Source: Aradus depressus
Taxonomy: Eukaryota; Arthropoda; Insecta; Hemiptera; Aradidae
Reading direction: 5' to 3'
NCBI GenBank assembly: GCA_963662175.1
Contig: OY759221.1
Span: 32,052,045-32,116,044 of the forward strand
Length of the DNA stretch: 64,000 nucleotides
Made by a program: the position numbers and the translations under genes. The notes beneath the pieces were generated by a model. That model made no database searches and had not been told where the DNA came from. It saw only the letters and a list, made by a program, of their open reading frames with translations. Below are positions 1,270 through 63,979 of this stretch, one piece after another (within the stretch, counting starts at the first letter, position 1; every line of letters starts with the position of its first letter).

Positions 1270-1310
1270 ATAACGGCTTTCGAAGTTGCCCTCATCATCA
1301 GGCCACCTAA
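1270..1310 (-). ncRNA. Hammerhead-like motif, family B
   Basis: On the minus strand the order is CTGATGA, an extra T, a stem with GNRA-type loop (GAGG-GCAA-CTTC), then GAAA and the start of the family B palindrome AGCCGGCT, which is degraded here to AGCCGTTA. It matches the copies at 22424, 33904 and 34127. Cleavage is unlikely because helix III is damaged. Confidence 0.55.
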
Positions 1311-1319
1311 AAAAACCAT

Positions 1320-1585
1320 CACCACGAATTAATCAACTGAGTTTTCGCTCTCCCTGTAACCCCAATCGATCGTTTTAATCAATTCTCATACTAAATTTTG
1401 TTGCTGATAATTTCATTACATCGGAGTTTGTGTTAAGCCCTCTCCCTTAATCCGCTCCTGCCCTTCGACCGATATGGGTGAAGATCAATAGGCGTCTTTG
1501 AAATTCTGGATACACATACAAATATTACATAAATGTATTGTCATTTTATCAGGAATTATGGTGTTCATATACACACACTGAAATT
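1320..1585 (+). repeat. TIR-C repeat, internal part
   Basis: Carries the ordered TIR-C landmarks: 'cgaattaatcaa', 'gttttcgctctccct', 'cattacatcgg', 'gatcaatagg' and a 'tatcaggaattatggtgttc' block followed by a CA-rich stretch. Both ends are missing. Confidence 0.65.
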
Positions 1586-1589
1586 ATTA

Positions 1590-2365
1590 CTCCCCCAGGA
1601 AGTATTAGAAAACTATGAAAATAAAAAAAAACATTAAGGCGTAGTCATCCATGCCGTAGATTTTGCGTGAAAGCGTCAGGATAAAATCATTTTTCATTTT
1701 CTTTTCGATGCTGCCGTAGCTCTTGCATTTGCTCGGCACTAGACTTTTTAGGTTTTTTAAATTCCTTTTGATGCGAGCTTTCCTCTGATTTGCGTTTTCT
1801 ATAATTCCGCGCATATTTACGATTCATATGAGACGACATCTTTAATTTTTTTCCAATTTTCAATTTAATACCGATTTTTACATGTATTTCGGCGAATATT
1901 TTTATTGTTTCACTTTGAGTCCTAGTAGTGGTCCTTTACAATGCCACCCGAATCAACGTATTATCTAAACGCGTTATCACGCTACACTAATTTCTAATTT
2001 TACACAACGCTAATTCGCAACAATCATCCGCCAGCGCTCACACTAGCCCGATAACCTCACAGGCAAAACAAACACTGCACAACAAACACGTACAGACATG
2101 CTCTATCCTTTGTGACCTCAACCGTTGTTATCGCATTATTAGTCTCGTAGTTATTATCGATTGAAATCGTATTTTGTAACACAAGAAAGTTTGACTGGCA
2201 TTCACTGTGCTTAACGAGCGAATAGACGTTTTCACGTTAAAAAATGTCCTGTCTATTTGTGTCTGTGAACGCGATAAATAAAATGATTGTATCGACATAT
2301 TGATTTCCAGCTGAATCGAAGTTTACACGGTCGAGGCTTAAACCAAAAACTCTTATAACTAGTTG
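1590..2365. other. Unassigned AT-rich DNA
   Basis: No repeat family or coding region recognised. The minus-strand frame at 1605-1814 is lysine/asparagine-rich and looks like AT-rich chance coding. Confidence 0.35.
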
Positions 2366-2368
2366 ATT

Positions 2369-2515
2369 AGTTATTACGACTCATGCCCGGGCTTTAACTA
2401 CAAGGTCATATCGCCTACTACCAGAGCGCTCTTTCATCACTCTGGTGCAAATAACCCCGGACTCTACTGTGGGAGTCCTAAATTTTGCCTGCCCCAAATT
2501 TTTATTCACCTAGGG
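2369..2515 (-). mobile_element. tRNA-derived SINE, 3' part
   Basis: Minus-strand copy of the last ~150 bp of the SINE, from 'ccctaggtgaataaaaat' to 'cccgggcatgagtc'. The tRNA-like head and central domain are absent. It directly abuts a TIR-C fragment at 2516. Confidence 0.8.
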
Positions 2516-2755
2516 ACTCTAATAACTGCCGATGTAATTAATGTACAGACACGAAATTTTATAGGTAAATTCAAAACACTAAAAGGACCACTCCTATTAA
2601 TTTTCCGCGATATCGGCGGATGGGAAGGTTGGGATCAGAGGAGGAGAACCTAACTCAAAATCCCGAATAACTGTCAATGTAATGAATGTATCAATGTATC
2701 GACACGAAATTTAGAATTAAGATGAAATAAGAATTTCCTACGTAAGTCAATTAAT
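2516..2755 (-). repeat. TIR-C repeat, internal part
   Basis: Minus-strand TIR-C landmarks: 'taactgccgatgtaat', 'cgacacgaaatt', 'ctattaattttccgcg' and 'cctacgtaagtcaa'. The 96-residue frame running through this repeat and the SINE at 2363-2653 is not a gene. Confidence 0.6.
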
Positions 2756-2759
2756 CAAA

Positions 2760-3450
2760 AAAATTATGTTTACGTGTGTTTAAGAGAGATTATAAAATCA
2801 AAATTCTTTTTGAGAACAAGTTTTGGTTTTTTTTTTTAAATGTTAAATTAAAGTTGAACAGAATCGTTTTAAGAGACCTCTAAGGCAATACATTTGCAAC
2901 AAAACGAAATTTAATTGCTGCATTTCATTAATTCAAGAATTTATGAAGAATTTTTTTAATGGTTAAGTACCTGCTTAAATGTTTGAGTATCGAGAGACTC
3001 TGTTACACACTTATATACTTCTGAAAGTTATGGACAGACAAGAAATGATAGACTTGTTTGACAAATGATTGTCCCAAGTCTGTAAGACCTCGTTTTAAGT
3101 TAATAGTTACACAAGAATGAAGACAATTAATGCGGCATTGAAAAGTGATCAAAACAAGAAGTGGAGGCGCCTCACTCCAAGTGCAAAAAGTCTTAAGACA
3201 GTGGTGAGGAGAAGAACAAAGGATGTTTTTCAAAAGACTTATAGCTCCCCGACAAAGGAGTCAGTGGAGCATCACCTGCTGCCTCATCCTAACCCCTCCC
3301 TCAGGCTAATCCTTTGTAACGCCTCATCCCACAAACATTAGTCTTTTTGTGTCTCATCAAAAGCTCAGACTGAGCAGCGATATAGCCAGAAAGCGCATAC
3401 GCTAAAGATGAAAATGTCTAATCTGGAAAAATAATACGAAAGAACTGCTT
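2760..3450. other. Unassigned DNA
   Basis: No recognisable gene or repeat. Overlapping short frames on both strands at 3003-3341 have no known motif. Confidence 0.35.
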
Positions 3451-3935
3451 TATAGCAGCTGGCGGAAATACGCCTCGGTAATAACATATGTGCTGTGTAG
3501 CAATAGAGCCATAGACATCGTTAAGATTCAAACTACGCAAAGAATATGAAATATCTATTTTATAGCAGCTAGCGGAAATACTCCTCGGTAATAACATATG
3601 TCCTGTGTAGCAATAGAGCCGTAGACATAGTAGATATTCAAACTAACGCAAAGAATATGAAATATCTATTTTATAGCAGCTAGCGGAAATACTCCTCGGT
3701 AATAACATATGTCCTGTGTAGCAATAGAGCCGTAGACATAGTAGAGATTCAAACTAACGCAAATAATATGAAATATATATTTCATAGCAGCTTGCGGAAA
3801 TACTCCTCGCATAAAAAGTATAACCTGGCAATAACATATGCTGACCAGTCTAGCAATAGAGCCGTAGACAGCGACAGCGTAAGGATTCAAACTAACGCAA
3901 AGAATACGAAAAAACTATTTCATAGCAGCTTGCGT
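3451..3935. repeat. Tandem array, ~111-bp unit, about 4.4 copies
   Basis: The block 'atagcagct.gcggaaatac' recurs at 3451, 3561, 3672, 3783 and 3921, giving steps of 110, 111, 111 and 138 bases. The last step is longer because of an insertion of about 27 bases. Each unit also holds 'aataacatatg', 'gcaatagagcc' and 'ttcaaactaacgcaaa'. Reading frames crossing it on both strands simply repeat the unit, so it is a minisatellite and not coding DNA. Confidence 0.9.
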
Positions 3936-3939
3936 GCTT

Positions 3940-5130
3940 GTTTACTGAGCTGAAAATCACCGTTCCAAACACGGCTTAGGCTCTTAGTTTTTTTGAAAAC
4001 CCCGTTCACCTGCCAACTCAAACTTCAAACTTCAACTTCACTCCCACTTCCCTTCGAGCGATTTTGCAGAATATTGTGTTGTCTTTATGGGGTTTTCATT
4101 TTAGATATGAAATTTCTTGTCAATGGATTAATTACATAGGCAGATATTAGAGTATTTGCATTGAGATCTAAGTAGATAAATGAAATTGAAGTCTCCATGC
4201 AAATCTGAAGTCATTGTAAAGATCGTGCTACTGTGTAAATGATCTCTGACGCAGAGCTTTGAGAAAAGTGGTAAACATGGTTCTGAGAACAAACATGGAA
4301 GCAACCTGGGAAAGAGTGGAGCATGACGTCAAGAGCAGGACCAATGGACGACGAAATCTCCAGTGAGCGACATCATCAAAGCGGACGCGACTGAATTCCA
4401 CATTCCACAGACTAGCTACTATTGACCCCACTATGTAGCGCTTCTCCGGTACACAATGGCCACCCTTGTCCTGGAATTCGTCTTTATCTGAGTTGGCGGT
4501 GACTAACATTCCAAGGAGGTGGGAAACCCCTCAGCTACAGAACTGACTGTAATTAAAGAGCTAGGTCCAGTGCTCTGAGCTAACCTATTATCCGAGCCTC
4601 CCCACCCCTATTTAATTAACAGTTGACACTTGCTCGAGGTCTCTTGGTCATCTTCTCCAACTGGTCTTTCCATTTACTTCTCGCCTTCTTGGCACAATTT
4701 AGCAGACTGAGAAAAAATATCAAAGGTGTTTACTTTTTGAAATTCTTGGTATACGATTCATGCAGCATTATGTTCGACCTGGTTCGTACAGTTGGAAGTC
4801 GACTTCTTTTCTGCGCATACACGAAACCACTTGGAATCAAACAATTTCAGATTCAAAAATGTTCGATAATGGTAGAGAATCATCTTAAAAACTTGGACGT
4901 CGGGTTTGAATATAAGAATAGCGGTGGTATCCTGCATTGTATAAGCAACATTTTCACTGGTAAGACTCATAAGCTAAGCGTATAGTCGCGGCGTTAGAAA
5001 ATTCATTACGAAGTCTAATTGTCATCAGCGTACACTTCCATTACTCTAAGCTGCACTCCTCTCTAGAAAAATGTGAATTAATAACGAATTCATATCCGCC
5101 GTCATTGACGTCTTTATGCAAATAATGTCT
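3940..5130. other. Unassigned DNA with weak open frames
   Basis: Holds a 93-residue minus frame (4228-4509) and a 120-residue plus frame (4623-4985). Neither shows a recognised domain, and I saw no convincing splice or promoter context. The region is moderately balanced in base composition compared with its neighbours. I cannot assign it. Confidence 0.3.
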
Positions 5131-6298: not shown

Positions 6299-6488
6299 AT
6301 ATACACACACTAAAGGAATATAAACTCCACATACTACTAACCAGTTCGGTTAGTTCAGTAGTAATCTCTGTTTAGTTCACTTGATAATGCCGTAAGAGGC
6401 GAAACTATAGTCGTGTCATTTTGACCAATATAGTGAAAATATTGACAAGTAGTGTGTGGAGTTTATATTCTTTTAGTGTGTGTATATT
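6299..6488. mobile_element. 190-bp inverted-repeat element with hammerhead-like core
   Basis: Terminal arms of about 40 bases are near-perfect inverted copies: 'cacacactaaaggaat...aaactccacatactact' on the left and its complement at 6449-6488. The short interior carries a degenerate hammerhead-like motif at 6378-6415. It has no coding capacity. Confidence 0.8.
6378..6415 (+). ncRNA. Hammerhead-like motif, degenerate
   Basis: The order is CAC (helix I), TTGATAA in place of CTGATGA, an extra T, GCC-GTAAGA-GGC (helix II), GAAA, the palindrome ACTATAGT overlapping its last A (helix III), C at the cleavage position, then GTG pairing with the first CAC. C3 and G8 of the hammerhead core are changed, so it is probably inactive, but the architecture is preserved. 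Confidence 0.5.
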
Positions 6489-7133: not shown

Positions 7134-7455
7134 AAGTAGGGGAAGTCGTCCGTTATCTGAGGTGATAGGGAAGCCAAGGTCTACATCCCGGTCCACAGGG
7201 ACCTTTCTGGAGGTACTCTTCTGGACTCCCGTCTCCAGCCCCTACCCTCTCTTTCCAGACGCACTTCAGCACCATCCTCCCTAACTCATCTCCCTCTGGA
7301 AGAACCACAAAACTTTGGACTATATGTACAATGGGGTAACTTTGAAAACTTCTAGATGAACTCGCTCATAATTAACCACAAAGACGTTTATATAATCATG
7401 AAAAACTAAAAACCTCGTCGGTGAATCACATCTAATGTACTTCTCCAGCATGTAT

Positions 7456-7468
7456 TAATCAAATAGGA
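7456..7468. repeat. Left flank duplication of palindromic element
   Basis: TTAATCAAATAGG occurs here and again at about 8936-8948, just outside the two arms. It is a candidate 13-base target-site duplication. Confidence 0.55.
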
Positions 7469-7514
7469 AAATAAGTAATTAGATTTATCAGTCCAACATA
7501 ATTTTTTTATTTAT

Positions 7515-7553
7515 ACCACAACTAGTTTCGGCAATTTGCCATCTTCAGGCGGT
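7515..7553 (-). ncRNA. Hammerhead-like motif, family C (left arm)
   Basis: Minus-strand order: ACCGC (helix I), CTGAAGA, extra T, GGCAA-A-TTGCC (helix II), GAAA, palindrome ACTAGT (helix III), T, then GTGGT. ACCGC and GTGGT pair with one G-U wobble. Nearly identical to the copy at 8812-8850. Confidence 0.7.
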
Positions 7554-7666
7554 GAATCTGAACATACATAAACCAAAAATTAAATTAGAATTTACGAGCT
7601 TTTACAGTTCATGTCAATCATTAACTGATAAATAAATAAGTTAAAAATAAAATATAACAATTTAAA

Positions 7667-7720: not shown

Positions 7721-8710
7721 AGGGTGTCGATGATTAAAATCAACTGATTAAAATCAACGATTTAAATCAAATGATTTTTTTTTTAATTCATGATTTAAAT
7801 CAAAAACATTAAAATAAATAAATAAGTGATTAAAATTTTGCAAATATAAAAAAACAAAAACAAAAAATAACAAAACGCACAAAACTGACCGCAGTTTGCA
7901 AACTATTGAAACATAATTTATGAAAATCTGTCAAGCAAACCACCAAATGATTACGTCAAAGCGTAATTATTTGAAAAAAGACAAAAAACTCGTGAGATTA
8001 AAATAGTTTAATTGGAAAAGATACAACTCAAAATGGTTAGCATATATATTAAAATAGTTTAATTGGAAAAGATACAACTCAAAATGGTTAGCATATATAT
8101 TAAAATAGTTTAATTGGAAAAGATACAACTCAAAATGGTTAGCATATATATTAAAATAGTTTAATTGGAAAAGATACAACTCAAAATGGTTAGCATATAT
8201 ATTAAAATAGTTTAATTGGAAAAGATACAACTCAAAATGGTTAGCATATATATTAAATGCGCTGAGATCAATGAAAATGTTTACATAGTGTAATGTTCGT
8301 AATCACATTAATATATTGTGATTCGAAACGATATATCTCCAAATGGCCAACATAAGATAAATGCGAACAATAGACCAAGCAATATCTTTAGGAGTTTAAA
8401 TGTTTGTACAGAAACACCAGTTTGCTAGCCTTCTCTACTCCTAAGCGATTCCTCAGTTTGGAATGAACTAGTCCGAAAGTTCGTTTTGTTGTTTTTGTTT
8501 TTGGTTTTTAAGTTTGTGGAAAATATTCGCTTTGTGGAATTTCGGCTAGTTTTGTTCGTTTTGTTATTTTTTTGTTTTTGTTTTTTAAAATTGTGAAATT
8601 GTGGTCTGTTTTGTTAATTTTAGTTAAGTTTTCAGTTGATAGTTTTTAGTTGATTTAAATCCGATTTAAATCGGATTTAAATCAAAAAAATCATGATTTC
8701 TATAAACCCT
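7721..8710. mobile_element. hAT-like non-autonomous element nested in the palindrome
   Basis: Ends are inverted: 'agggtgtcgatgattaaaatc' on the left and 'aaatcatgatttctataaaccct' (complement begins AGGGTTTATAG) on the right. Both ends carry repeated 'gatttaaatc' subterminal motifs. It is flanked on both sides by ATTTTATTTT, compatible with an 8-base hAT duplication, although that flank is low-complexity. About 990 bp, no transposase frame, with a 51-bp tandem array inside. hAT assignment is inferred from the end style. Confidence 0.6.
7997..8255. repeat. 51-bp tandem array, 5 copies
   Basis: 'aaatagttta' recurs at 8001, 8052, 8103, 8154 and 8205, an exact 51-base step with almost no divergence. 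Because 51 is a multiple of three, the minus strand gives a 17-residue repeat (ELYLFQLNYFNIYANHF). That frame is a by-product of the array, not a gene. The near-identity of the units points to recent expansion. Confidence 0.95.
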
Positions 8711-8811
8711 ATTTTATTTTATTTTTGACTTATTTATCAGTTAATGATTGACATGAACTGTAAAAGCTCGTAAATTCTAATTTAATTTCTGGTTTATGTA
8801 TGTTCAGATTC

Positions 8812-8850
8812 ACCACCTGAAGATGGCAAATTGCCGAAACTAGTTGTGGT
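8812..8850 (+). ncRNA. Hammerhead-like motif, family C (right arm)
   Basis: The best-formed example in the window. Helix I is ACCAC (8812-8816) with GTGGT (8846-8850), five Watson-Crick pairs. CTGAAGA lies at 8817-8823, an extra T at 8824, helix II GGCAA/TTGCC at 8825-8835, GAAA at 8836-8839, palindrome ACTAGT at 8839-8844, and T at the predicted cleavage site (8845). The parts appear in the order of a type I hammerhead with a minimal helix III. Confidence 0.75.
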
Positions 8851-8993
8851 ATAAATAAAAAAATTATGTTGGACTGATAAATCTAATTACTTATTTAACA
8901 AGTTAGTCCACTACATCTGCCTACCACCAAGTAATTTAATCAAATAGGTTTTCGTTCTTTCTTCAAAAGAAAAACCAATAATTGACTAACATA

Positions 8994-9394: not shown

Positions 9395-10000
9395 CTTTAA
9401 GATTTTGCAAGTTACCATTCATTATTTACTGATGATGATGCTGTTGCGTCAAAACCCATCTTACTGAATAATTACCTATATCATTTTAAAAATGTGCTTT
9501 ATATAACTAAGTAAAGCGTTAATGTATTGCTTCTAATTCGCCTTCGGTTTTTGGCGTTCGTTCGCTCAAAGTATAAGCGGTTTTTCTATAACTAATGGAG
9601 TCTCTTTATTTGAGGAGCGGAACGTTCCCTGGATGGCGTTGCCTAATTGTATCCATTAAACAACAGCTTTAAGAAGAAAAAAAAATTGAGGAAGTTGACT
9701 GAATGTTCAAGTTAAACCGTGAGTCTAATGAAGGGTGAAATGAATGTTAAAACTTGGTTCCTCCGGAGTCATGGGTCCATTTACAAGAAAGTACAGGAGG
9801 GTCATAACCTCTAATGCGAGGGGATGATGCGTTAAATACTTCAACGGCCTACCCTCTTAGCGCTCCAACAGATTCTTTTAAGGAACACGAGAAAAAAAAT
9901 AATTACTTCACAGGCGGCTGTACAGTCTTGGGGATCCCGAAGATTTTTATTTAAAGGAGGCTTTCCAAAAATTTGTTGATTTCAAATCTGAGGACTTTCA
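9395..10000. other. Unassigned DNA
   Basis: No recognised gene or repeat family. Confidence 0.3.
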
Positions 10001-10582: not shown

Positions 10583-10742
10583 AATGTACGTTATTGTTTT
10601 ATTTATTCATTTATATATATTTTTTTATTTAGACATTTTTATACATTCATTTATAATTGACTAATATATACATATATTATTTTTCATATATTGTTATAGT
10701 TACATTGTTTTCTTTCTTTTCTATATCTCGCCAGATTGGGAC

Positions 10743-10780
10743 CTGATGATGGGACGTAAGAACGTCCCGAAACATCGTTG
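10743..10780 (+). ncRNA. Hammerhead-like motif, family D
   Basis: CTGATGA (10743-10749), extra T, a perfect seven-pair helix II (GGGACGT-AAGA-ACGTCCC, 10751-10768), GAAA (10769-10772), then CATCGTTG, where helix III could be only AC/GT closing a three-base loop. No good helix I is visible next to the core, so this one may be a decayed or minimal form. Confidence 0.55.
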
Positions 10781-10885
10781 GGGGATAAGACACTTCCGAA
10801 GTTTTTTTTTTTTGAAAAATAGTTATCTTAATTTTTATTAAATTGAAAAAAAATGTGTACTTATTATGAACGTATCTTGTATTAT

Positions 10886-13710: not shown

Positions 13711-13987
13711 CGAGGCCCTTAGTTTATTTTATTTGGGAGGTAAAAAAAATAAACTTAAGCACGCCGTCCTTCGGATGGGACGTTAAGCGATGGTCCCGAG
13801 CCTGTATGATCTCAGGTACTCGTTAAAGACCCCTACCCTAGGTGAATAAAAATTTAGGATAGGCAAAATTTAGGACTCCCACAGTAGAGTCGGGCTCATG
13901 TCCACCAGAGTGAAGAAAGAGCGCTCTGGTAGTAGGCGATATGACCTCGCAGTTAAAGCCCGGGCATGAGTCATAAAATCTAACCTG
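13711..13987 (+). mobile_element. tRNA-derived SINE, lacking the tRNA head
   Basis: Starts at 'cgaggcccttagttta', keeps the central domain (TTCGGATGGGACGTTAAGC, TGGTCCCGAGCC, ACTCGTTAAAGACCCC) and the full 3' part. Confidence 0.9.
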
Positions 13988-20750: not shown

Positions 20751-21085
20751 TATAGCTCAGTGGTATGCATGCTTGCCTTCTGAGCTCAAGAAAGTGGGTT
20801 CGAAACCCGACCGAGGCCCTTAGTTTATTTTATCTGGGAGGTAAAACAAACTTAAGCACGCCGTCCTTCGGATGGGACGTTAAGCGATGGTCCCGAGCCT
20901 GTACGATGTCAGGTACTCGTTAAAAACCCCTGCCCTAGGTGAATAAAAATTTAGGGTAGGCAACATTTAGGACTCCCAGAGTAGAGTCGGGCTCATGTCC
21001 ACCAGAGTGACGAAAGAGCGCTCTGGTAGTAGGCGATATGACCTCGTAGTTAAAGCCCGGGCATGAGTCATAAACCTTAACCCCC
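20751..21085 (+). mobile_element. tRNA-derived SINE, near full length
   Basis: Box A (TAGCTCAGTGGTA), box B (GGTTCGAAACC), central domain and 3' part are all present. Only the first ~10 bases of the head are replaced. Confidence 0.92.
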
Positions 21086-22299: not shown

Positions 22300-22460
22300 G
22301 CACATTACTTTCATACATGCAGTAATACTAAAATGAAATTAATTTGAGAGAGGATATGGGAAGAATGATCTGTAAAAACTTGGTTGTTATATATGAAGTC
22401 TCGTTGAATGCTTTGTAGGTGGACTGATGATGAGGCAAACCTTGAAAGCCGGCTAGTCAA
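22300..22460 (+). repeat. Dispersed repeat carrying a hammerhead-like motif
   Basis: 'cattactttcataca', 'atgaaattaatttgagag' and 'gtgatctgtataaaa'-like phrases recur in order at 48549-48655. Here they are followed by the family B motif at 22424. Confidence 0.6.
22424..22460 (+). ncRNA. Hammerhead-like motif, family B
   Basis: CTGATGA (22424-22430), extra T, GAGG-CAAA-CCTT (helix II, one G-U), GAAA, the perfect palindrome AGCCGGCT (22447-22454), and A at the predicted cleavage position. Helix I is weak (GGT..A against GTCAACC). Confidence 0.6.
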
Positions 22461-22464
22461 CCTT

Positions 22465-27574: not shown

Positions 27575-28175
27575 GGGTTGTCAACAGTCAAAAGAGTTGA
27601 TGAGAGGAACAACTCCTAAAAATGATCAGTTTCAAATTTCATGGATGGAAACAGGATGAGGAAGGTTTACGCTTTCTTTCCAATTGTATGTCAATGCTTT
27701 CAATTATATCCATCTTTCTACTTTTATGAATATTATGTTACAACGAGGCCAATCCACCACCATTAACTTGCACCTAGTCTGGCATATCCGTCGGCCCTTT
27801 GACAATATTTCATAAGGTACGTTTCGAGGCTATTTCTGACAAATAATACGCTTCCCACTATAACCACTTAAATGGAATTCAATTGTGCCATTATTCGAAG
27901 GACTGTTACAATATGTAGACCAGTTACCTGATTCGGTTTCCGTAAGAAGCGTCATGGAGAGCTGAAAGTGTTCGACGCCTGGGGGTGGCCACGCTGCTCC
28001 TACCCCCACTCCTGTCACCACTGCCTCCTTCTCAAGGTCCTCCTCTTCAACTGAAACACAACAATTATATATGTATTAACAATTCTCTCTGTTTTATAAC
28101 AATTATTTTAAAATACATAACGTTGTTTCTTTATATTCATAAACTGGGATGGAATTTTAAGTCAAGGTCCTCCCC
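27575..28175. other. Unassigned DNA
   Basis: No recognised gene or repeat. Overlapping short frames near 27830-28188 lack known motifs. Confidence 0.3.
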
Positions 28176-28312: not shown

Positions 28313-28442
28313 TATCTGCTTCAAGTATTAATATTACTTCCGATGGATGATATAAAAATCGTGCTTCATGTCCGAAATTAGTAGTATAATTGTTGTAAAT
28401 AATTGATTTTTATTTTTAAAATTTATTATTTTTCTTCATATG

Positions 28443-28455
28443 TAGGTTAAGTGTA
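28443..28455. repeat. Left target-site duplication of truncated retrotransposon
   Basis: GTAGGTTAAGTGT is present here and exactly again at 28934-28946, on the other side of the element. Confidence 0.8.
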
Positions 28456-28933
28456 ACAATTTATAAAACAGCCCTGAGACCGGTCGTCACATATGCGAGT
28501 GAAACCTCGGTCCTGACTAGGAGGGACGAAGTCTTACTCAATACGTGGGAGAGGAAGGTATTGAGAAAGATATACGGCCCTACTCCAGAGGGAGATAAAC
28601 GGAGGATATGGACCAATGGGGAGCTGAGGGACCTGTACAAGAGCCCGGACCTGGTGGCCTTAGTGAAGCAGGGGCGGCTGCGATGGCTGGGACATTTACA
28701 GAGGATGGAGCCAGACAGATTGCCGAGGAAGATACTGGAAGGACACCCGGGAGGACAAAGAAGAAGAGGTAGACCCCGCTTACGTTGGCTGGAGGACGTG
28801 GAGGACGACCTCAGAACGATGGGTGTGAGAAGATGGAGACGGGAGGCCGAGGATAGAGTAGAATGGCGGAAGATTGTTGCGGAGGCCCAGGTTCTACAAG
28901 GACCGTAGCGCCAGGGAAAGTAAAGTAAGTAAA
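28456..28933 (+). pseudogene. Non-LTR retrotransposon, 5'-truncated C-terminal region
   Basis: An uninterrupted frame of about 150 codons to a stop at 28906-28908 covers the end of RT and the conserved C-terminal tail: TIYKTALRPVVTYASETS, RKVLRKIYGPTPEG, GRLRWLGHLQRM, DRLPRKILEG, RRRGRPRLRWLEDVEDDL and EWRKIVAEAQVLQGP. This is RTE-type or a related arthropod clade. The catalytic RT motif is lost upstream. A short tail with repeated AAGTAA units follows the stop, and an exact 13-base duplication flanks the piece. The open frame and exact duplication suggest a fairly young insertion. Confidence 0.88.
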
Positions 28934-31425: not shown

Positions 31426-31430
31426 TAGCA

Positions 31431-31464
31431 CTGAAGATGATCAAATGGGGATGAAAGCTGGCTC
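31431..31464 (+). ncRNA. Hammerhead-like motif, family B, degenerate
   Basis: CTGAAGA (31431-31437), extra T, a weak stem (ATC...GAT), GAAA, near-palindrome AGCTGGCT, C. Helix II is damaged. Confidence 0.45.
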
Positions 31465-31551
31465 TACAAAATAAACTTGTGGCTGGACAACTCATACATT
31501 TTTCCATTCAATAACTTTATTATCTGTAAATAAATGTTTATGTAAAGTATG

Positions 31552-32335: not shown

Positions 32336-32420
32336 TACTTTACATTACTTATTATGGCGAATTTTAATATGTTGATTTTTCCGGCATTTTTTTCCAGTCT
32401 TCTTTTTTTTTTTGACAATA

Positions 32421-32445
32421 TTTCGGGACACTTCCACATGACTAT
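32421..32445 (-). ncRNA. Hammerhead-like remnant, family D (left arm)
   Basis: Minus strand keeps the 3' half: GTGTCCC, GAAA and TATTGTC. The 5' side of helix II and CTGAAGA are eroded. Compare 56453 and 33017. Confidence 0.4.
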
Positions 32446-33011
32446 GAACATTTTTCTCCTGGGGACCCTCCTTTTTTTAATCAAAACCTTGACTTTGTCT
32501 CTCTCTTCCGAGGTAATTTTCCGATTGGTCCGCCCACCAGCCAATCATAATTTTTTTTGGAATCCATCTCTGATGGTCTCCCATCGCCCTCGACCGTGAC
32601 GCCAGCGCCATCAGTTCACCTTCAAATAATGACAGCCAGCCATGCGGTTGTGTCCAAGATGTGGAAGCAGCTCAACGCTAAGAAGACCAGGCTTGGTGTT
32701 GGGCACCAACATGAGGGCCGCCTGACGGTGGACTTATGTACTACGGCAGGGTTACGAATTTTGGGAGTTTGATTGTTGAACCAATCACAAAAATCACTGA
32801 GGAAACGCATGGCCGCCATTACTTGAAGGTGAACTGGGAGCGCCACGTTTGAAGATTACCATCAGAGATGGATTCCAAAAAAAATTATGATCGGCAGGTG
32901 GGCGGACCAACCAGAAAATTATCTCGTTAAACAGGTAGTTCATGGAAGAGAGAGAGAGAGACCGCCACAGGCTTTGGCTATAAAAAAAAAATCTCCCCAG
33001 GAGAAAAATGT

Positions 33012-33045
33012 TCAGAGGGACGTGGAAGTGTCCCAAAATATCGTC
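33012..33045 (+). ncRNA. Hammerhead-like remnant, family D (right arm)
   Basis: Helix II is intact (GGGAC...GTCCC, 33017-33034). GAAA has become AAAA and the CTGAAGA block is shortened to CAGA. Followed by TATCGTC. Confidence 0.4.
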
Positions 33046-33140
33046 TCTGGAAAAAAATGTCGGAAATAATCAACATATTATCATCCCAGAGAAGTCTAAG
33101 AAACACACATTTTAATATATTTTATATGTATTCATAGATA

Positions 33141-33178
33141 TGTCACAGGTGATGGGTTGAAAACTGGTTCTGGTTAGA
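33141..33178 (+). ncRNA. Hammerhead-like remnant, family A
   Basis: 'gtcac', a shortened core ('ggtgatg'), GAAA, AACTGGTT, CTGGT: the family A motif with helix II deleted. Confidence 0.4.
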
Positions 33179-33845: not shown

Positions 33846-33902
33846 AGGTTGCAAAATAAAAATATATGACGGACCAAACACAGATTTTATACTTTTTTAT
33901 GC

Positions 33903-33938
33903 TAGCCGGCTTTCGAAGTTGCCCTAATTATCAGGCAG
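33903..33938 (-). ncRNA. Hammerhead-like motif, family B (left arm)
   Basis: Minus strand: CTGATAA (G8 to A), a helix II with GGGCAAC loop side, GAAA, perfect palindrome AGCCGGCT, A at the predicted cut, then GCAT. Confidence 0.55.
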
Positions 33939-34121
33939 TCTACTAAAAATCCCATCATTTAGTAAAAAGCTACAAAATGCTAATCGCCAAGACTACATGT
34001 GCTAAAAGCATAAATATATATTTTTTAAATTGTAACTGTTTTTATCTTGGACGGACGGGTCAGAAGCTTTTAGCTATTAGAATTTTATAGCGTTTTACTA
34101 AATGAAAGCTCTTTGTAGATT

Positions 34122-34160
34122 GCCTGCTGATGAGGGCAACCTCGAAAGCTGGCTAGCATA
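34122..34160 (+). ncRNA. Hammerhead-like motif, family B (right arm)
   Basis: CTGATGA at 34127-34133, helix II GGGCAACCTC (no extra T in this copy), GAAA 34144-34147, AGCTGGCT, A, GCAT. Core residues are all canonical. Confidence 0.6.
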
Positions 34161-34229
34161 AAATAGTAAAATCTGTGAGAAAAAAGACTATATTTTTATT
34201 TTACAACCATTTTCTGTCTGTCCTTATAT

Positions 34230-36015: not shown

Positions 36016-36043
36016 ATTCATATGTGATAGAGAAATTTTGAAC

Positions 36044-36090
36044 GACAAGAACCAGTTTTCAACGAAACAGCGTCTTCATCAGTGGCACAT
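36044..36090 (-). ncRNA. Hammerhead-like motif, family A
   Basis: Minus strand: CTGATGA, extra A in place of the usual T, GACG-CTGTTT-CGTT (helix II), GAAA, AACTGGTT (palindrome with one G-U), C. Confidence 0.55.
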
Positions 36091-36094
36091 CTCA

Positions 36095-36970
36095 CCCGTA
36101 CAGTGTAGAGGCTAAAAGAATATTGGCCTGTCTATTAAAGAAATATTGTTTTTAAATAACCAACATATAAATCTGTATAGACTGCATTGTTGTATAAATT
36201 GGATCCGACACTAAAGTTTCAAATTAGCATATGAATTCATGTACACCTTTTGTGGCGGTGTGATGTACAGGAGGCGAGGATCTCTCCCCTGTAGAAGCGT
36301 CAGGTCGGCATATTGTGTCGAGGTGGCTGTCGGGTCGTTAGCATCACAATAGAGAGGAGGGCATGCTCCCTGGGTGAGTCAGAGAGCCGCATCTGGGGGC
36401 CAGGGCATTTGTCTTGTAGGGGCGGAGGTAACCGAGGTCATACCCGTGGATACAATCCAATCCGTTCCTGGGGTGGACCCAGACAGGGGACACTCACTTA
36501 GTATATATCATCTGCATATGACAGGGCACGCATCGCCAAATGTAGCCCACAGTTCCTCCCACACTCATTCATGAGTGTCTAGAACATACAATCTTATTTG
36601 TTTTTATTTATAAAAAATCTTTAGTATACAAGTATAGTCATTTTATCATGGACAGGCAGGTCGGAAACGGAGGACTAAAGAGGAGGAACATTTGAGGAGA
36701 GGCAACTCTGAATACTTCGAACACCTTAAATATTACAAAATATCAATAAAAGTAGAAAAATGGATATAATTGAAAGGAAAAATACCCCCTCCTCAATTTC
36801 AGAGAGGGGATAACTTCATCTGCCTTCACACACTCAGTGCTGCTAGTTGTGCCTCAACTGGGGACCAAGAATAACGTATCAATTAACAATTAACGTCCCC
36901 AACCATGAGGTTTTAAAACAGTTTTTTTAGTTAGTTTTACGAAGTAACGTGGTCTTTTGTCCTATTCAGA
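36095..36970. other. Unassigned DNA
   Basis: A locally GC-rich stretch at 36250-36560 has overlapping open frames but no known motif. Confidence 0.3.
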
Positions 36971-38835: not shown

Positions 38836-38926
38836 CCCAAACATTGGAAAATACATTTCTGAAGGAAATAATCTATGTAATGTTGTAATAATCTATGAAC
38901 ATTGTTTTCCCACTGTTTTATTTCTG

Positions 38927-38968
38927 ACCAGAACCGGTTTTCAACGCAACTGCGTCATCATCAGTGAC
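38927..38968 (-). ncRNA. Hammerhead-like motif, family A
   Basis: Minus strand: GTCA, CTGATGA, extra T, GACGC-AGTT-GCGTT (helix II), GAAA, palindrome AACCGGTT, C, TGGT. GTCA and TGGT can pair using two G-U wobbles. All catalytic core positions are present. Confidence 0.65.
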
Positions 38969-38974
38969 ACATTC

Positions 38975-40659: not shown

Positions 40660-41280
40660 ATTAAGGATGCAGGATCTATCCTTGGATGAGCAACATCAGA
40701 TTCTATGAGGCCAAAAGCGCCAATGCATCTGCCATCCTTCGGTTCTTTTAAAAAGTCCATAGAGTGAAGCCATGTTACAGAATGGTTTCATATTGGATCT
40801 GATCCAACACGACAGACAGAATTCACTAACGATCATTCAATGACATAACAGCGACGAGAAATTAAAAGGTGGGAAAAATCTACACGAGGGAGAGAGGTAA
40901 TTAAACGACGAGACCACAGAGGGGCCTCCAGCGTCATTTGCCTGAGCGGACTAACGACTGTTCTTATTAAAACCAGTGCGCGTCCTCACACCCCAAAACA
41001 GAAAGCGACTCAACAATCAATTGTTCAACTATAGCACACGTGAGGATGGGTTTTTATAGGAAAAGTAATCAAGTCCCTCCACTCAGGGAATATCGGTGGA
41101 TATTTGCTTTTCGATTTCACGTTAGCCTTTAAGCTTTTTTTTTTCGTTCAAGGCAGTGGCAATAATTAAAAACCGTTTCTTGAAGCTAGACATATGAAGC
41201 ACGAAAGTTAAGTCGAATTATATTATTGTGAATAAAACAATAAAACTTTATTATCACATAGAAATAAAATATGTTGTCTT
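40660..41280. other. Unassigned DNA
   Basis: No recognised gene or repeat. Confidence 0.3.
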
Positions 41281-41283
41281 CCC

Positions 41284-41325
41284 ACCAGAACCGGTTTTCG
41301 ACGCAACAGCGTCATCATCAGTGGT
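41284..41325 (-). ncRNA. Hammerhead-like motif, family A (best copy)
   Basis: Minus strand: ACCA (helix I), CTGATGA, extra T, GACGC-TGTT-GCGTC (five perfect helix II pairs), GAAA, palindrome AACCGGTT, C at the predicted cut, TGGT pairing fully with ACCA. Every core residue of a hammerhead is present; the only departure is the extra T after CTGATGA. Confidence 0.72.
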
Positions 41326-41353
41326 TCATCTATGATAGAATAATAAAATATAC

Positions 41354-41600
41354 AAGAGGGCGCCGGTAGCTCAGTGGTATGCGTGATTGCCTTCTGAGCT
41401 CAAGAACGTGGGTTCGACCAAACCCGGACGAGGCCTTTAGTTTATTTTATCTGGGAGGTAAAATAAACTTAAGCACGCCGTCCTTCGGATGGGTTGTTAA
41501 GCGATGGTCCCGAGCCTGTACGATGTCAGGTACTCGTTAAAGACCCCTGCCCTATGTGAATAAAAATTTAGGATAAGCTAAATTTAGGACACTCACAGTG
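41354..41600 (+). mobile_element. tRNA-derived SINE, 3'-truncated
   Basis: Full tRNA-like head (box A intact; a 4-base insertion disturbs box B, 'gggttcgaccaaaccc') and central domain, ending at 'aaatttaggacactcacag'. It starts about 28 bases from a hammerhead-like motif. Confidence 0.9.
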
Positions 41601-48925: not shown

Positions 48926-49033
48926 TAAAATAATAATAACAATACAAGATACGTTCATAAAAAGTAGACACATTTTTCTTCAACATATGATAGTAAGGCT
49001 ATTGTGGGGCGAGATTTCTGTTTTATGTTCAGT

Positions 49034-49070
49034 CAGTCTTTCAACGCAACTGCGTCATCATCAGTGGCAC
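49034..49070 (-). ncRNA. Hammerhead-like motif, family A
   Basis: Minus strand: GCCA, CTGATGA, extra T, GACGC-AGTT-GCGTT, GAAA, then a diverged helix III ('gactgactg' in place of AACCGGTT). The SINE insertion at 49107 lies 37 bases away in the same repeat. Confidence 0.55.
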
Positions 49071-49094
49071 ATCTATGTATACATATATGTAAAA

Positions 49095-49106: not shown

Positions 49107-49445
49107 GAGGGCGCCGGTAGCTCAGTGGTATGCGTGCTTCTCTTCTGAGCTTAAGAACGTGGGTTCGAAACCCGACCGAGGCCTTTAGTTTATTTTATCT
49201 GGGGGGTAAAATAAACTTAAGCACGCCGTCCTTCGGATGGGACGTTAAGCGATGGTCCCAAGCCTTTACGATGTCAGGTACTCGTTAAAGACCCCTGCCC
49301 TAGGTGAATAAAAATTTAGGGTAGGCAAAATTTAGGACTCCCAGCCGGGCTCATGTCCACCAGAGTGACGAAAGAGCGCTCTGGTAGTAGGTGATATGAC
49401 CTCGTAGTTAAAGCCCGGGCATGAGTCATAAAACATAACCTAACC
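49107..49445 (+). mobile_element. tRNA-derived SINE, full length (reference copy, 339 bp)
   Basis: Head: box A TAGCTCAGTGGTA at 49118-49130 and box B GGTTCGAAACC at 49162-49172, with a perfect T-arm (GGGTTCGAAACCC), the Pol III promoter of a tRNA gene. Body: 'ttagtttattttatctggg', then a central domain (CTTCGGATGGGACGTTAAGC, GATGGTCCC, ACTCGTTAAAGACCCC). The 3' part runs 'ccaccagagtgacgaaagag', 'gtagttaaagcccgggc' and ends in 'cataacctaacc'. An exact 12-base duplication flanks it. It codes for no protein and must depend on a partner LINE, not identified here. Confidence 0.96.
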
Positions 49446-55929: not shown

Positions 55930-57010
55930 ATGGCACCCTAAAACACCTGCGCAAGACATGTAAGGCAGGTGAATACATCTGAGAAAGGCGTGGCCAGGTA
56001 TGACATCTGAATATACCTGAGCTGGGCGTGGTCAGGTAAAGTCCATCGAATGATGGCGGACACCTGTCAAAGGCGTGGTCAGGTAAATACCTGAGTAGGT
56101 ATGGCACCTGAGTACACCTGTGTTGGGCGTGGTCCACCGAATGGAAGCACCTGCGAATGGCAGATGTCTGTCTTGGGACCAGTCAGGTCCTTCGAATGGT
56201 GGCACTTGTCAATTAGTGCCAAGGGCTTTTGTTTCCTTCGTCGAAAACACCAATTAACGAGAACTGACGGCCCTCACAGCCGATTGTCAGAAGTGCTGTC
56301 AACTATGGAAACTAATTTAAATTACGATGCATGAGAGGATGAATAACACATAACATGTAACAAATAACGATTGTGTTTCTTAAACTCCTCTGGGATGTTA
56401 ATACATATGTTGTTTTTTTCCAAATGTGTCTTTTTTTTATTTTTTGACAATATTTCGGGACACTTTCACGTCCCTTCTTCTGGTCACTATGAACAAGTTC
56501 TTATAAAAACTAGTGATAGAAGAAAAAGAAGCACTACTGGAAAAAATACCGGACAAAATCAACAAATAACGATTGGTGAAAGCCAGTTGGAAGCCATTCA
56601 CCTGGCAAGTAAAGTCGGGCGGTGATTGGCTGGTGGAGGTAAGGTAAAAACTCCCCCACCTACCTGCCTCCACAGGTAGAAAGAACCCCACCTGCAATGG
56701 AAGCGGTTTCACTGAAAGTGACCCACAACAGTGCTTTCCCAAATATCACTAAGGGACGAACGGATAGACGCTAAGAGTAAAATGAGAAGCGTGTACGCTC
56801 GAACGGACGTTTGACAGAACACGTCTCATTGCAGCTTCTTTCTTATGAGATATACTAGTTGTGTATGCACAAATGAGATAACAGATAGCTGAGAAGTGAA
56901 TGGATAGCGCAACTAATGTGCCTGGAGAAGGCTGGAACACGAAAGACAAAGAACACCTCAGGTAGAGGAAGGAGACCAGCCTCAGCAGGTGTGAAACAGA
57001 AAAACAAGAC
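55930..57010. other. Stretch dense in CAGGTA/CACCTG words
   Basis: CACCTG, CAGGTA, CAGGTG and ACCTGAG appear roughly twenty times in about 1.1 kb, often next to 'ggcgtggtcaggta' phrases (55988, 56026, 56078, 56126). This could be a decayed tandem repeat, or a binding-site cluster for E-box/Zelda-like factors. The sequence cannot decide. No coding region. Confidence 0.45.
56453..56485 (-). ncRNA. Hammerhead-like motif, family D
   Basis: Minus strand: ACC, CAGAAGA (U4 to A), extra A, GGGACGTGAAAGTGTCCC (helix II with internal loop), GAAA, TATTGTC. Core base U4 is lost, so activity is unlikely. Confidence 0.5.
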
Positions 57011-60042: not shown

Positions 60043-60185
60043 TCAAAGTTTTGTACTTTCTTATACTGTTAGTATAAGGAGGTATTGTAATCGTGCAGAA
60101 ATCCGAGAGTTTTCGACGAAATTTTAAGGTCCCCTGAATACGTTTTGACCATTTTTGACACGATGTCTGTGTACAGAAATGTACT
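60043..60185 (-). repeat. TIR-C-related subfamily, copy 1
   Basis: 'ctttcttatactgttagtat', 'aggaggtattgtaatcgtgc', 'agttttcgacgaaatttta', 'aggtcccctgaatacgtttt'. Matches 61465-61612 and is alignable with the TIR-C left end. Confidence 0.6.
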
Positions 60186-60192
60186 TATATGT

Positions 60193-60438: not shown

Positions 60439-60475
60439 AAGAAAGGTTTGCGAGACATGAAGAAAACAACAAAAC

Positions 60476-61097: not shown

Positions 61098-61112
61098 TCC
61101 CAGCTAGGGGAT
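61057..61112. repeat. 28-bp tandem duplication
   Basis: 'gaactgagaccattcccagc' plus 'aaggggat' occurs twice with a 28-base step, at the 5' edge of the Jockey-like fragment. Confidence 0.85.
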
Positions 61113-61119
61113 GAATTGA

Positions 61120-61255
61120 AGTTAATTATGATGAGAGGGAGAGTATCAAGTCCTTTCATGGAAATTAGTTAACAGGTGAATTGAGATGAGTATCTCGACA
61201 TGAAGAGACAACGTTAATTGCTTGTCTTGAAGTAACTAACTGCTGGTTAAGTAGA
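61120..61255. other. Unassigned DNA
   Basis: No recognised feature. Confidence 0.3.
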
Positions 61256-61256
61256 G

Positions 61257-61429
61257 TTAGTTATTGTGACTCATGTCCGAGCTTTAACTACGAGGTCATA
61301 TCGCCTACTACCAGAGCGCTTTTTCGTCACTCTGGTGGACATTAGAACGACTCTACTGTGGGAGTTCTAAATTTTGCCTACCCTAAATTTTTATTCACCT
61401 AAACACAATCGCTTAACGTCCCATCCGAA
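61257..61429 (-). mobile_element. tRNA-derived SINE, 3' part
   Basis: Minus-strand 3' region to 'tttattcaccta', then a jump into the central domain ('cgcttaacgtcccatccga'). Confidence 0.85.
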
Positions 61430-61464
61430 TTTATTGGTGATTTATTTTTTATTTATTAATTTGT

Positions 61465-61612
61465 TACTTTCTTAAACCTGTAGTATAAGCAAGTATTGTA
61501 ACCGTGCGAAAATCAGAGATTGAGGTTTCAACGAATTTTCACATTTCAAGGTCCCCTGAATACGTTTTGATCCTTCTCGCGATGATGTCTGTATGTGATT
61601 GGATAATACCCA
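61465..61612 (-). repeat. TIR-C-related subfamily, copy 2
   Basis: Second copy of the block at 60043: 'agtattgtaaccgtgcg', 'tttcaacgaattttcac', 'aaggtcccctgaatacgttt' and 'gatgatgtctgta'. Confidence 0.6.
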
Positions 61613-61614
61613 AT

Positions 61615-62090
61615 AATCACCAAATATTGCCGTCCTATGCGACCACCTAGTTCGCCTGTATGTTCGCGCCGGGCCTTCGAACAACCATATAAGGAGAAAG
61701 AAAACCAGAAGAACATAAAAAAAAAATGAAGAAAGTTAACAAAAAAGTACGGAGGATTAAACACAATTAGAGTGGTAGAGAAGCGGAGAATACCAACTAC
61801 AGGCCTTGACTCCTGTGTCTGACAAATCAATTACGAAAAGGAATTGTCGTGGTGGTGGCGAGCGGCGAGGCAAGGAGTCGTCCGGACTTGAGGCTCTTCT
61901 ACAGGAAACAGAACAAACTCAGGGGGGAGCCGATTTACATAAGAGAAGGGAGTTCTGATTGAAAAGGGGAAGTGAGTGAGGCTAGCCAACCAGTTATCTC
62001 AGTCATATCAGATTTGTCATTTCTGGCTTGGACATGGTGACCAATCAATCCATTTCTGCATTGACTAAGGCCAAGAAAGGCTAAATACAA
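61615..62090. other. Unassigned DNA
   Basis: No recognised gene; minus frames at 61472-61830 lack motifs. Confidence 0.3.
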
Positions 62091-62094
62091 TGTC

Positions 62095-62275
62095 GTCAAT
62101 GTACGTTCCCAGGACATTTTTCGCTCCCCCTCTGTAATGAAGAAATGTATGGGATACCTTACTCAGGGATTTCTGAATGCTACTGCTAAATTTCGTGTCG
62201 ATACGATCATTACAACCGCGATACTGGAGTTTTTGACTCTCTTGGCCGAATTGACTGAAAATGTCATCGGGTAAT
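62095..62275 (+). repeat. TIR-C repeat, internal part
   Basis: 'aatgtacgttcccaggac', 'tttttcgctccccctctg', 'ctaaatttcgtgtcgatacg' and 'ttggccgaattgactgaaaa'. Confidence 0.6.
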
Positions 62276-62343
62276 GTTCGGGCTGGCTCAAGCAACAGCA
62301 ACATCGAAGGTTAAAATTGTCGTTAAGAGTAATCATCATTTTG

Positions 62344-62470
62344 GATGAGGGCGCTGATGGTATGCGTGCTTTCTTACTGAGCTCAAGATCACAGGTTCGA
62401 AGCCCTTAGGTTTTTTATCTATCTAAGAGACAAAAAATTTAGAGTGACGAAAGAGTGCTCTGGAAGTAAA
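62344..62470 (+). mobile_element. tRNA-derived SINE, deleted copy, subfamily B
   Basis: Head with deletion in box A, 'gagctcaagatcacaggttcgaa', then a jump to 'gtgacgaaagagtgctctgg'. Confidence 0.7.
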
Positions 62471-62474
62471 TAGA

Positions 62475-62935
62475 AAATATTCTAACTATGCCCTCTCTCT
62501 GAGAGTCTCTAAAAGTAAAATTTAATTTATCCCAGTTTCTACTTATAGATACATTGTTTTTGGAGAAGTCTTGATATGCTAATTACGTAGGTGAGGACTG
62601 GAGCCTGGGTCCACCCTAAGAAGCCCCCACGAAGGACACTAATTAAAGTGAAGCCTCACACCTAACTGACCCTCTAATTTCCTGTTCCCCGGAGTTGATC
62701 CGACGAGCTCGACTGGGTATCAGTGCTCCTGACAGCTGGGACTAGTCAGCCGACCGTGAGTCGCCTCCTGTCTCACCCACAGCTTGGCACGGAGGGAATC
62801 AAAAATATACTTCAACTCTCTTATCTGTTCATTTAAATTGTCAGTTTGATACTCTTAAAGACAATTGGGGGAGAGTAGGAAGGATTCTCACTCTGAGAAA
62901 AATGTATCTTCTGTCTTTATGAGAGTCTCTGGAAG
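62475..62935. other. Unassigned DNA
   Basis: No recognised gene or repeat. Confidence 0.3.
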
Positions 62936-62939
62936 GTTC

Positions 62940-63440
62940 AAGTAAGATCTAGAGGACTTTAAGAAGTCATGTAGAGAAAGAACCATATGCAGACCATACA
63001 GTCGTAGGTGTTCCTGGGTGAGGATTCAAAAGTGGTTGGGACGCCCACTGGGTGCCCCGGAGTCCCGTCCGGCTCCTCACTTAGGTCCTCCCGTGGTTTC
63101 CCTTATCTTAATATCCTTTGAAGAAAGGGCTCATTAATAATTAAAACTGTTTTACTTTAGGAAACAGGCGCTAATAATCTCAGATGACTCCCTTTATAGA
63201 GATATCCTCAGACGAGATTCATTTTCGGTAGAAATATGATCATTGAGGAAGATTTGAGAATATTAGATCATGGAATTCTTAGGTTTGCTAAGAAAGATAG
63301 GAGACTTGGTCCTTCATGAAGTATTTGGTATCTTGAGAATCAGGTAAACCAAGATGTCAAGATAAGGAGAAAGCCCGGCGTTTCCAGGCAAAGGATAATA
63401 GCATCAGATGCTTAGGTCCTAGGTTAATGCACCAGTCCAC
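62940..63440 (+). pseudogene. RNase H-type non-LTR retrotransposon, 3' relic with insertions
   Basis: 62960-63030 ('agtcatgtagagaaagaacc', 'agtcgtaggtgttcctggg') matches 12530-12580, and 63255-63430 (ILDHGILRFAKK; 'aagcccggcgtttccaggca', 'gatgcttaggt') matches 12770-12910. About 200 bases of unrelated DNA separate the two blocks. The coding frame is destroyed. Same family as the copy at 12140. Confidence 0.7.
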
Positions 63441-63444
63441 CCAG

Positions 63445-63940
63445 TATACGGATGGACTTTGGAAAAATGCATTTGTGGCTGTAGGTACGCTGCTGCCGGA
63501 TTGCAGCATTGCCCAACGAAGTGGCAGAGTATGATTCTGGCACAAGTCCAGGAAAGCAGCCCTTTTAAGGTATACAAGGGTTTATCGAACTGTCTCAACG
63601 ATTCGTACTTCTGTAGACGCAATATGCTTTTAAGAGACATTGATAAACCCTTAAGACTATCCCAGGAAAAAGAGGTGCCCGGACGCCCAGAAAAGAGCGA
63701 TGCAAGTACATTGTCCAGGAATGGATAGTGGAAAAATGGCAAAAACGTTGGTCAGGTCAAAAAAGATTTACCTGAAAGATCACTATGTATTCATGGCAGT
63801 TTGCGTAAACAAATCATCGATACTGGACTAACACTGGTTGCAAATATTGTGACGATCGTTGATACAAATAGCTAATACTGGGACAGAGTTAAACTTTGTT
63901 ATATTCGGACACTGGGCCAAAACCTGATGCCGACCGAATG
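63445..63940. other. Unassigned DNA
   Basis: Overlapping frames on both strands at 63419-63742. A phrase EKWQKRWSGQ near 63730 resembles linkers in R1/Jockey ORF2, but it is too short to call. Confidence 0.3.
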
Positions 63941-63942
63941 AT

Positions 63943-63979
63943 GACCGGTTTTCACCGCAACTGCGTCATCATCAGTGGC
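63943..63979 (-). ncRNA. Hammerhead-like motif, family A
   Basis: Minus strand: GCCA, CTGATGA, extra T, GACGC-AGTT-GCGGT, GAAA, AACCGGTC (palindrome with one change). The window ends 20 bases after its repeat's 'gtgtagag' block. Confidence 0.58.

Follow-up and report, generated by a model that had tools for sequence, protein, structure and literature searches.

How does a short stretch of an insect genome come to contain some eighteen sequences that resemble the hammerhead ribozyme, and in several sequence families at once? The stretch in question (hereafter the window: all 64,000 nucleotides from 32,052,045 to 32,116,044 of contig OY759221.1, assembly GCA_963662175.1, of the hemipteran Aradus depressus) was the subject of a preliminary description, made from the sequence alone, which listed 18 sites and supposed that several families use, or used, hammerheads of the Penelope type. 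Minimal type I hammerheads are known from Penelope-like elements (PLEs) (Cervera and De la Pena, 2014; Lunse, Weinberg and Breaker, 2017; via PMC7761336 and PMC6155905). It seems likely that the motifs of the window are such hammerheads, belonging to several co-resident PLE families and left behind as 5'-truncated, head-to-head pairs of pseudo-long terminal repeats (pLTRs) and as decayed solo copies. In the parent elements the motif stands past the end of the open reading frame (ORF) on the coding strand (families B and H), between the ORFs of tandem units (B), and past ORF remnants (F).

We called a motif complete if it had the core, a helix II of at least 3 bp, GAA, a palindromic helix III, H17 and a helix I of at least 3 bp. 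The full descriptor read CTGANGA, 0–2 nt, helix II, GAA, a loop-less palindromic helix III ending in T, H17 and helix I, and was controlled in the window by 100 dinucleotide shuffles. Complete sites with a perfect core number four (8817 on the plus strand; 7548, 41321 and 38964 on the minus strand; shuffles: mean 0, maximum 0), rising to six when one core change is allowed (adding 34124, plus, and 56482, minus; mean 0.08, maximum 2) and to seven with up to two (adding 6381, plus; mean 0.4, maximum 4). These four perfect-core sites and three with one or two core changes have what defines a type I hammerhead (CUGANGA...GAA...UH, three helices and an open-ended helix I), and all seven have a single nucleotide, six times U and once A, between A9 and helix II. 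A looser test, on core, helix II and GAA alone, gave 10 sites in the window, compared with a mean of 0.29 and a maximum of 3 in 200 shuffles. Out of the 697.7 Mb and 74 contigs of the genome searched, a random sample of 80 kb was drawn before looking (the first 8 of 80 listed stretches, on 13 contigs); here the looser test gave 4 sites against 0.47, and the strict one (at most one change) 1 against 0.017 (60 shuffles). The motif thus occurs genome-wide, at a higher density in the window than in the sample. The single nucleotide after A9 recurs in 9 of the 10 looser window sites and in all four sample sites, as against 8 of 28 looser hits in shuffled sequence.

What elements does the motif belong to? 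The genome has 1852 candidates for the GIY-YIG domain (PF01541), of which the 150 scored were all above the cut-off, with open frames of up to 859 codons; two open frames, of a B type and an H type, are intact with both RVT_1 (PF00078) and GIY-YIG. We read 24 PLE loci, namely the first 20 of the GIY-YIG list (L052–L071) and four picked for long frames (L072–L075). The family B motif was present on the coding strand, with six mismatches or fewer, in 10 of the 12 loci with a B-type ORF (the misses being L053 and L055), lying 147–165 nt beyond the ORF end in nine and nearer in L061. All 10 loci with an H-type ORF have the family H motif, which was found solely in PLE loci, about 324–352 nt beyond the ORF. 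In L066 and L069, PLE remnants of the GIY-YIG region only, with 54% and 43% identity to the H-type protein, are followed by the family F motif 299 and 308 nt after their last aligned residue. None of the B, H and F motifs was found in L052. In L072, two B motifs spaced 2819 bp apart flank the 859-codon frame, and same-strand GIY-YIG neighbours exactly 2819 bp apart, that is, tandem PLE units, are found at four places (Table 1). In the B-type PLE, 96 nt separate the start of the motif from that of the open frame downstream, and 150 nt from the frame's first ATG. The ORFs of L072 and L073, more than 99% alike, suggest recent spread of this type. The family B copies of the window align with the L072 pLTR, and the one at 1301 continues into its tail.

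In the window itself, where interspersed repeats are numerous and GC content runs from 33.5 to 41.1% per 4-kb block, there is no ORF of at least 150 amino acids with a start codon, and the 30 stop-to-stop ORFs searched with Pfam (of 60 that have at least 90 amino acids) gave no reverse transcriptase or GIY-YIG match. Two short remnants of the B-type ORF were located there by tblastn with this genome's own PLE proteins.

For other families, the evidence is anatomical. Element C, which holds the two family C hammerheads, has inverted arms of 184 nt that are 95% complementary, an extension of 39 nt on the right only, and a 13-bp direct repeat flanking both ends, a length matched in none of 300 controls. 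Between its inverted pLTRs, a 51-bp unit is repeated 5.1 times with 100% identity (window 7997–8257). Families B and D form head-to-head pairs both in the window and in L044. The flanks share 10 nt in family D (3 of 300 controls) and 12 nt in F (4 of 300), which is suggestive of duplication; the 8 nt shared in family B, reached in 37 of 300 controls, are not above chance.

Family A was followed through all 38 of its loci outside the window on a 43-row similarity list (40 of 1508 candidates having been scored). R1, a covariance model built from three family A copies, found 62 motifs in these loci, 17 of which have one motif alone. Where neighbouring motifs are 1.6 kb or less apart, 20 of 24 pairs are head-to-head and read outwards, three (all in L009) are direct and one is opposite. 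Copies end about 28–37 or about 64–68 nt past the motif end; with L016 as the reference and L018 and L041 as exceptions, 18 of the 20 head-to-head pairs have one arm of 40 nt or less and the other of at least 47 nt past the motif (13 at 64–79), and the unequal ends therefore point to an AC-rich tail of about 33 nt on one arm. Common flanks of at least 8 nt (some AT-rich) surround 9 of the 20 pairs, compared with 41 of 1000 controls, and reach 13 nt in L016; around single copies, one 10-nt AT-rich match was the only direct repeat among seven. In the four elements profiled, similarity between copies drops inwards from the motif, as 5' truncation would make it do. Head-to-head pairs, a one-sided tail and shared flanks thus give family A the anatomy of a PLE; inverted head-to-head pLTRs are common to A, B, C and D, and a one-sided tail with target-site duplication to A and C. 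Four family A matches (E <=3.6e-5) in the random 80 kb put its abundance at about 35,000 per genome, four counts allowing roughly 10,000 to 90,000. Viral contigs scanned for exact patterns of A and C yielded no stretch of either.

The supposition that several families use or used Penelope-type hammerheads is thus borne out, B and F lying just downstream of PLE ORFs or their remnants and A and C having PLE anatomy, with 'used' better supported than 'use'. The list of sites needs more revision. Hammerhead-like sequence is indeed present at all 18, but only seven are complete; the string CTGA(T/A)GA, said to be common to them, occurs at 12 and is missing at 6381, 32421, 33017, 33141, 33903 and 56453. 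The core is intact, with helix III or I damaged, at 10743, 22424, 1301 and 49064, and likewise at 36082 and 63975, where helix II pairs at four of five positions; G8 is altered at 33934; at 31431 the core string is present, helix II is absent by the descriptor and the model match is weak (E 0.15); and the core is gone at 32421, 33017 and 33141. The site given as 34127 was three bases out of register, its true core being CTGCTGA at 34124, and a family A copy on the plus strand at 9421–9472 (E 1e-6) had been overlooked. Helix II of family C, given as GGCAA/TTGCC, is actually of 4 bp with a 3-nt loop, whereas the helix I pairing reported at 8812 and 41284 is as described. In the window, family A comprises 36082, 38964, 41321, 49064, 63975, 33141 and the unlisted 9421; B comprises 1301, 22424, 33934, 34124 and perhaps 31431; C, 7548 and 8817; D, 32421, 33017 and 56482; E, 10743; and F, 6381; family G was found solely outside it (L047 and L026). 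Nor are all of these unrelated, as had been thought, since D and E are 77% alike over 39 nt.

Is the fold itself kept between families? R1 ranked its own three copies and four more A copies at the top, and its next five ranks were B or C sites from the earlier list (E 0.0026 to 0.31), ahead of any unlisted place; in the ranking by a two-copy C model, third place went to a D site and fifth to an A site, with E in eighth and F in ninth, the E-values being weak (0.52–4.6) and unlisted places interspersed. That a model of one family recovers others speaks against a complete lack of covariance-model hits. In an alignment covering seven families in 12 rows, the paired cells amount to 93.8%, compared with 64.7% when the 3' letters are redealt, and 31 cells have changed on both sides, compared with 10.4 expected from shuffles (neither reached in 500 shuffles). 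The six helix pairs with a double change are unremarkable against 4.8 (reached in 123 of 500). Sliding by one column reduces pairing to 32–33%, and one slid version (by -3, with four pairs) gave 62.5%. The cross-family figure is inflated because several rows were picked for pairing; for BL044, B33934, E10743, EL047 and GL047 the ground was homology, or core and helix II alone. The earlier claim that pairing is kept while sequence changes appears to hold across families, with some selection bias, but does not extend inside family A, where no covariation was found (38 distinct rows, 94.2% of cells paired, no double-sided change, and shuffles equal).

One change in the core deserves mention. All three family F copies (window, L066 and L069) have C3 changed to U together with G8 changed to A, which may be a natural compensatory exchange, albeit one event in three related copies and with both changes transitions. 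Exchanges of this core pair were reportedly studied by Przybilski and Hammann in 2007, and an extra core nucleotide, said to lie after A9, by De la Pena and Flores in 2001. A broader idea, which we regard as tentative and rather unlikely, is that PLE hammerheads have been selected as folds in each lineage: most helix letters would have changed while pairing and the extra nucleotide after A9 were kept, and lineage F would have swapped C3–G8 for U3–A8, a natural compensatory change keeping the ribozyme, or at least the fold, in use.

A number of results weigh against the motifs being PLE hammerheads in working order. The want of covariation within family A is one. The Rfam hammerhead models, from which a covariance-model match might have been looked for, gave none in the window and two short stretches, at gathering scores or at E up to 10, perhaps because they do not suit a loop-less helix III and an extra nucleotide; Rfam annotation can overlook such motifs. 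Families A, C and G have no match in the 24 PLE loci, and D and E only matches of 23–50 nt, and no coding partner for any of these five families was seen there; R1 run over the same loci found B motifs only. Eleven of the 18 listed sites are partial or decayed, U4 is changed to A in family D (56482 and both arms of L044), and helix I has only 2–3 bp in the B-type parents. In dimer folds with the core kept open, a double hammerhead is favoured for 41321 only (-31.9 kcal/mol, compared with -32.4 unconstrained); it costs 11 kcal/mol for 34124, other pairings are favoured by 38964, 8817 and 56482, and F lacks helix I.

Could the same pLTR motif, then, have been kept for another reason, as a binding site for the PLE protein or a packaging or priming signal in the RNA, with self-cleavage lost or never important? 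The lack of covariation in A, the altered U4 of D and the many broken copies would fit, and in the Anolis PLE, hammerhead mutants leave in vitro insertion unaffected and no reads end at the cleavage site (PMC11167929), the former also counting against our main reading. The Anolis ribozyme is nevertheless active, as single C3 and G8 mutants abolish its activity (PMC11167929), and a site recognized simply by sequence would not need the core and the pairing of helices I and III that are kept across families with differing helix letters. This alternative is in our judgement unlikely.

We find it improbable that the elements are metazoan retrozymes, small non-coding hammerhead tandems spreading via circular RNA with PLE proteins in trans. 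One locus has that form: L009 617–1418 (G000:C1:82610616-82611417) consists of 4.0 direct, retrozyme-like copies of a 202-bp unit with 98% matches, three with a model-found motif. Most A elements, at 270–1372 bp, are also too short to encode a PLE protein. No such direct motif tandem exists in the other 37 of the 38 A loci, and the window has no motif-bearing tandem (judged by units of about 150–450 bp with one hammerhead each); families B and H sit in coding PLEs, and in the short helices I no room was seen for loop–loop contacts. Still less probable is an origin from Foldback transposons or miniature inverted-repeat transposable elements (MITEs), the motif lying in terminal inverted repeats by accident: the window's B, C and D copies and 20 of 24 neighbouring A copies are in inverted pairs, as this would have it, but the arms are asymmetric, the 5' ends vary and PLE ORFs or their remnants are found alongside the B, F and H motifs, a link which contradicts the idea for B and F (and for which F as a MITE with a chance match was dropped). 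Chance matches to a short descriptor, which probably do explain lone looser sites such as 5028, outside all families, are as a general account contradicted by the shuffle controls and by membership of repeat families, and merit hardly any credence.

Table 1. Hammerhead-related features of the window, with tandem PLE units elsewhere in the genome
Feature	Position	Strand	Remark
Family C hammerhead, complete; helix I 5 bp, II 4 bp, III ACTAGT	8809..8853	+	
Family C hammerhead, complete; one G-U in helix I	7512..7556	-	
Element C, left inverted pLTR, 184 nt	7469..7652	-	95% complementary to right arm
Element C, right inverted pLTR	8713..8896	+	
Element C tail, one-sided extension past right pLTR	8897..8935	+	39 nt up to duplication, from coordinates
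Element C target-site duplication, left, TTAATCAAATAGG	7455..7467		0/300 controls as long
Element C target-site duplication, right, TTAATCAAATAGG	8936..8948		
Family A hammerhead, complete; helix I ACCA/TGGT, III AACCGGTT	41280..41329	-	
Family A hammerhead, complete; G-U pairs	38923..38972	-	
Family A copy, helix I gone	36041..36090	-	
Family A copy, helix III gone	49028..49072	-	
Family A copy, helices III and I damaged	63912..63983	-	
Family A copy, core and helix II gone	33138..33178	+	
Family A copy absent from earlier list, 3' side decayed	9421..9472	+	E 1e-6
Family B hammerhead, complete except A6 altered	34116..34163	+	
Family B copy, G8 altered	33895..33942	-	head-to-head partner of 34116
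Family B head-to-head pLTR pair	33847..34208		72% inverted
Family B copy, helix I gone	22416..22463	+	
Family B copy, helices III and I damaged	1262..1309	-	runs into PLE tail
Probable decayed B-like copy, weak	31430..31465	+	E 0.15
Family D hammerhead, complete except U4 to A	56441..56490	-	
Family D remnant, core gone	32396..32460	-	
Family D remnant, core gone	32999..33063	+	head-to-head partner of 32396
Family E copy, core and 7-bp helix II intact, helix III imperfect	10735..10784	+	
Family F hammerhead, C3 to U and G8 to A	6373..6420	+	
B-type PLE ORF remnant, residues 731-761, GIY-YIG region	36638..36730	+	64.5% identical
B-type PLE ORF remnant, weak, residues 730-799	27660..27854	-	35.7% identical, E 5e-6
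Tandem PLE units (G000)	C8:9964385/9967204, C6:33118339/33121158, C4:21900611/21903430, C3:26757893/26760712		

Some other features of the window may be recorded here. A high-copy short interspersed element of tRNA-derived appearance, with head GGGCGCCGGTAGCTCAGTGG on the plus strand (20753–21082, 49107–49440, 13711–13986, 41356–41599 and others), makes up much of the window's self-similarity and stands directly upstream of the family A motifs at 41321 and 49064. At 3449–3809, a 111-bp unit is repeated in tandem (3.3 copies, 94% matches), and 28420–28908 is the end of an ORF for a reverse transcriptase like that of long interspersed elements, its best named relative being a transposon-derived protein of Lygus hesperus (61% identical). 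Changes in helix II of families A and E often fall at CpG sites (ACGC to ATGC or ACAC, ACGT to ACAT; seen at 10735–10784 with L006, L036, L037, L047 and L051), the pattern that methylation-driven decay would give.

How do the Aradus motifs compare with known systems? Published PLE hammerheads are likewise minimal type I motifs in pLTRs, with little or no helix III loop and a proposed cleavage as dimers, and thousands are also dispersed in non-coding regions; the features here, compared with them by description only, are a loop-less palindromic helix III of 4–8 nt and one extra nucleotide after A9. The Poseidon PLE of Anolis carolinensis (PAc) shares an ORF for reverse transcriptase and GIY-YIG, tandem units, pLTR, tail and a hammerhead in the pLTR region, its tail being the stretch between two reverse-transcription start sites (PMC11167929). 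With the Penelope elements of Adineta vaga there are in common inverted, mostly head-to-head pLTRs, a one-sided tail (31 bp in Adineta), short target-site duplications (8–10 bp in Adineta) and foreign DNA captured between pLTRs (PMC3846280); the word hammerhead is absent from the available text of that paper, and most of the elements here are short and non-coding. Metazoan retrozymes are a further instance of type I hammerheads carried by abundant repeats of animals, among them insects, with more than 6000 motifs in 16 families in a coral and, according to a heading, up to 120 000 in the axolotl (PMC7229834). They are tandems of about 150–450 bp; here such a tandem, of 202 bp, occurs once, and the majority of copies stand alone or in head-to-head pLTR pairs. 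The pDo500 repeats of Dolichopoda cave crickets are another case of an insect hammerhead in repeats, with a conserved C3–G8 core pair, but are satellite DNA with reported compensatory changes inside the family (PMC2837043), of which family A has none.

If the motifs are PLE hammerheads, read-through RNA of tandem PLE units would hold two or more of them, and the loop-less palindromic helices III of two could pair to form a double hammerhead, predicted to cut after H17 and so to release RNA of unit length. Reverse transcription would begin at the tail and run towards the 5' end, so that insertions would keep the hammerhead near their common 3' end. A transcript of a head-to-head pair would be a long hairpin in which a single sense hammerhead faces a single antisense one, and most dispersed copies, those of the window included, are for this reason probably silent.

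The hammerheads described here are new families of a kind, the minimal PLE hammerhead, that is already known, and the finding fits existing knowledge. The role of minimal hammerheads in PLEs has been termed a mystery (PMC7761336). This one genome harbours no fewer than three PLE types that code for protein or once did so, as well as full-length units in tandem and numerous relics; every type has a hammerhead of its own, placed at a steady distance past the end of the ORF. These co-resident types thus provide natural ribozyme–protein pairs in one host, in which it may be asked what benefit the ribozyme brings.

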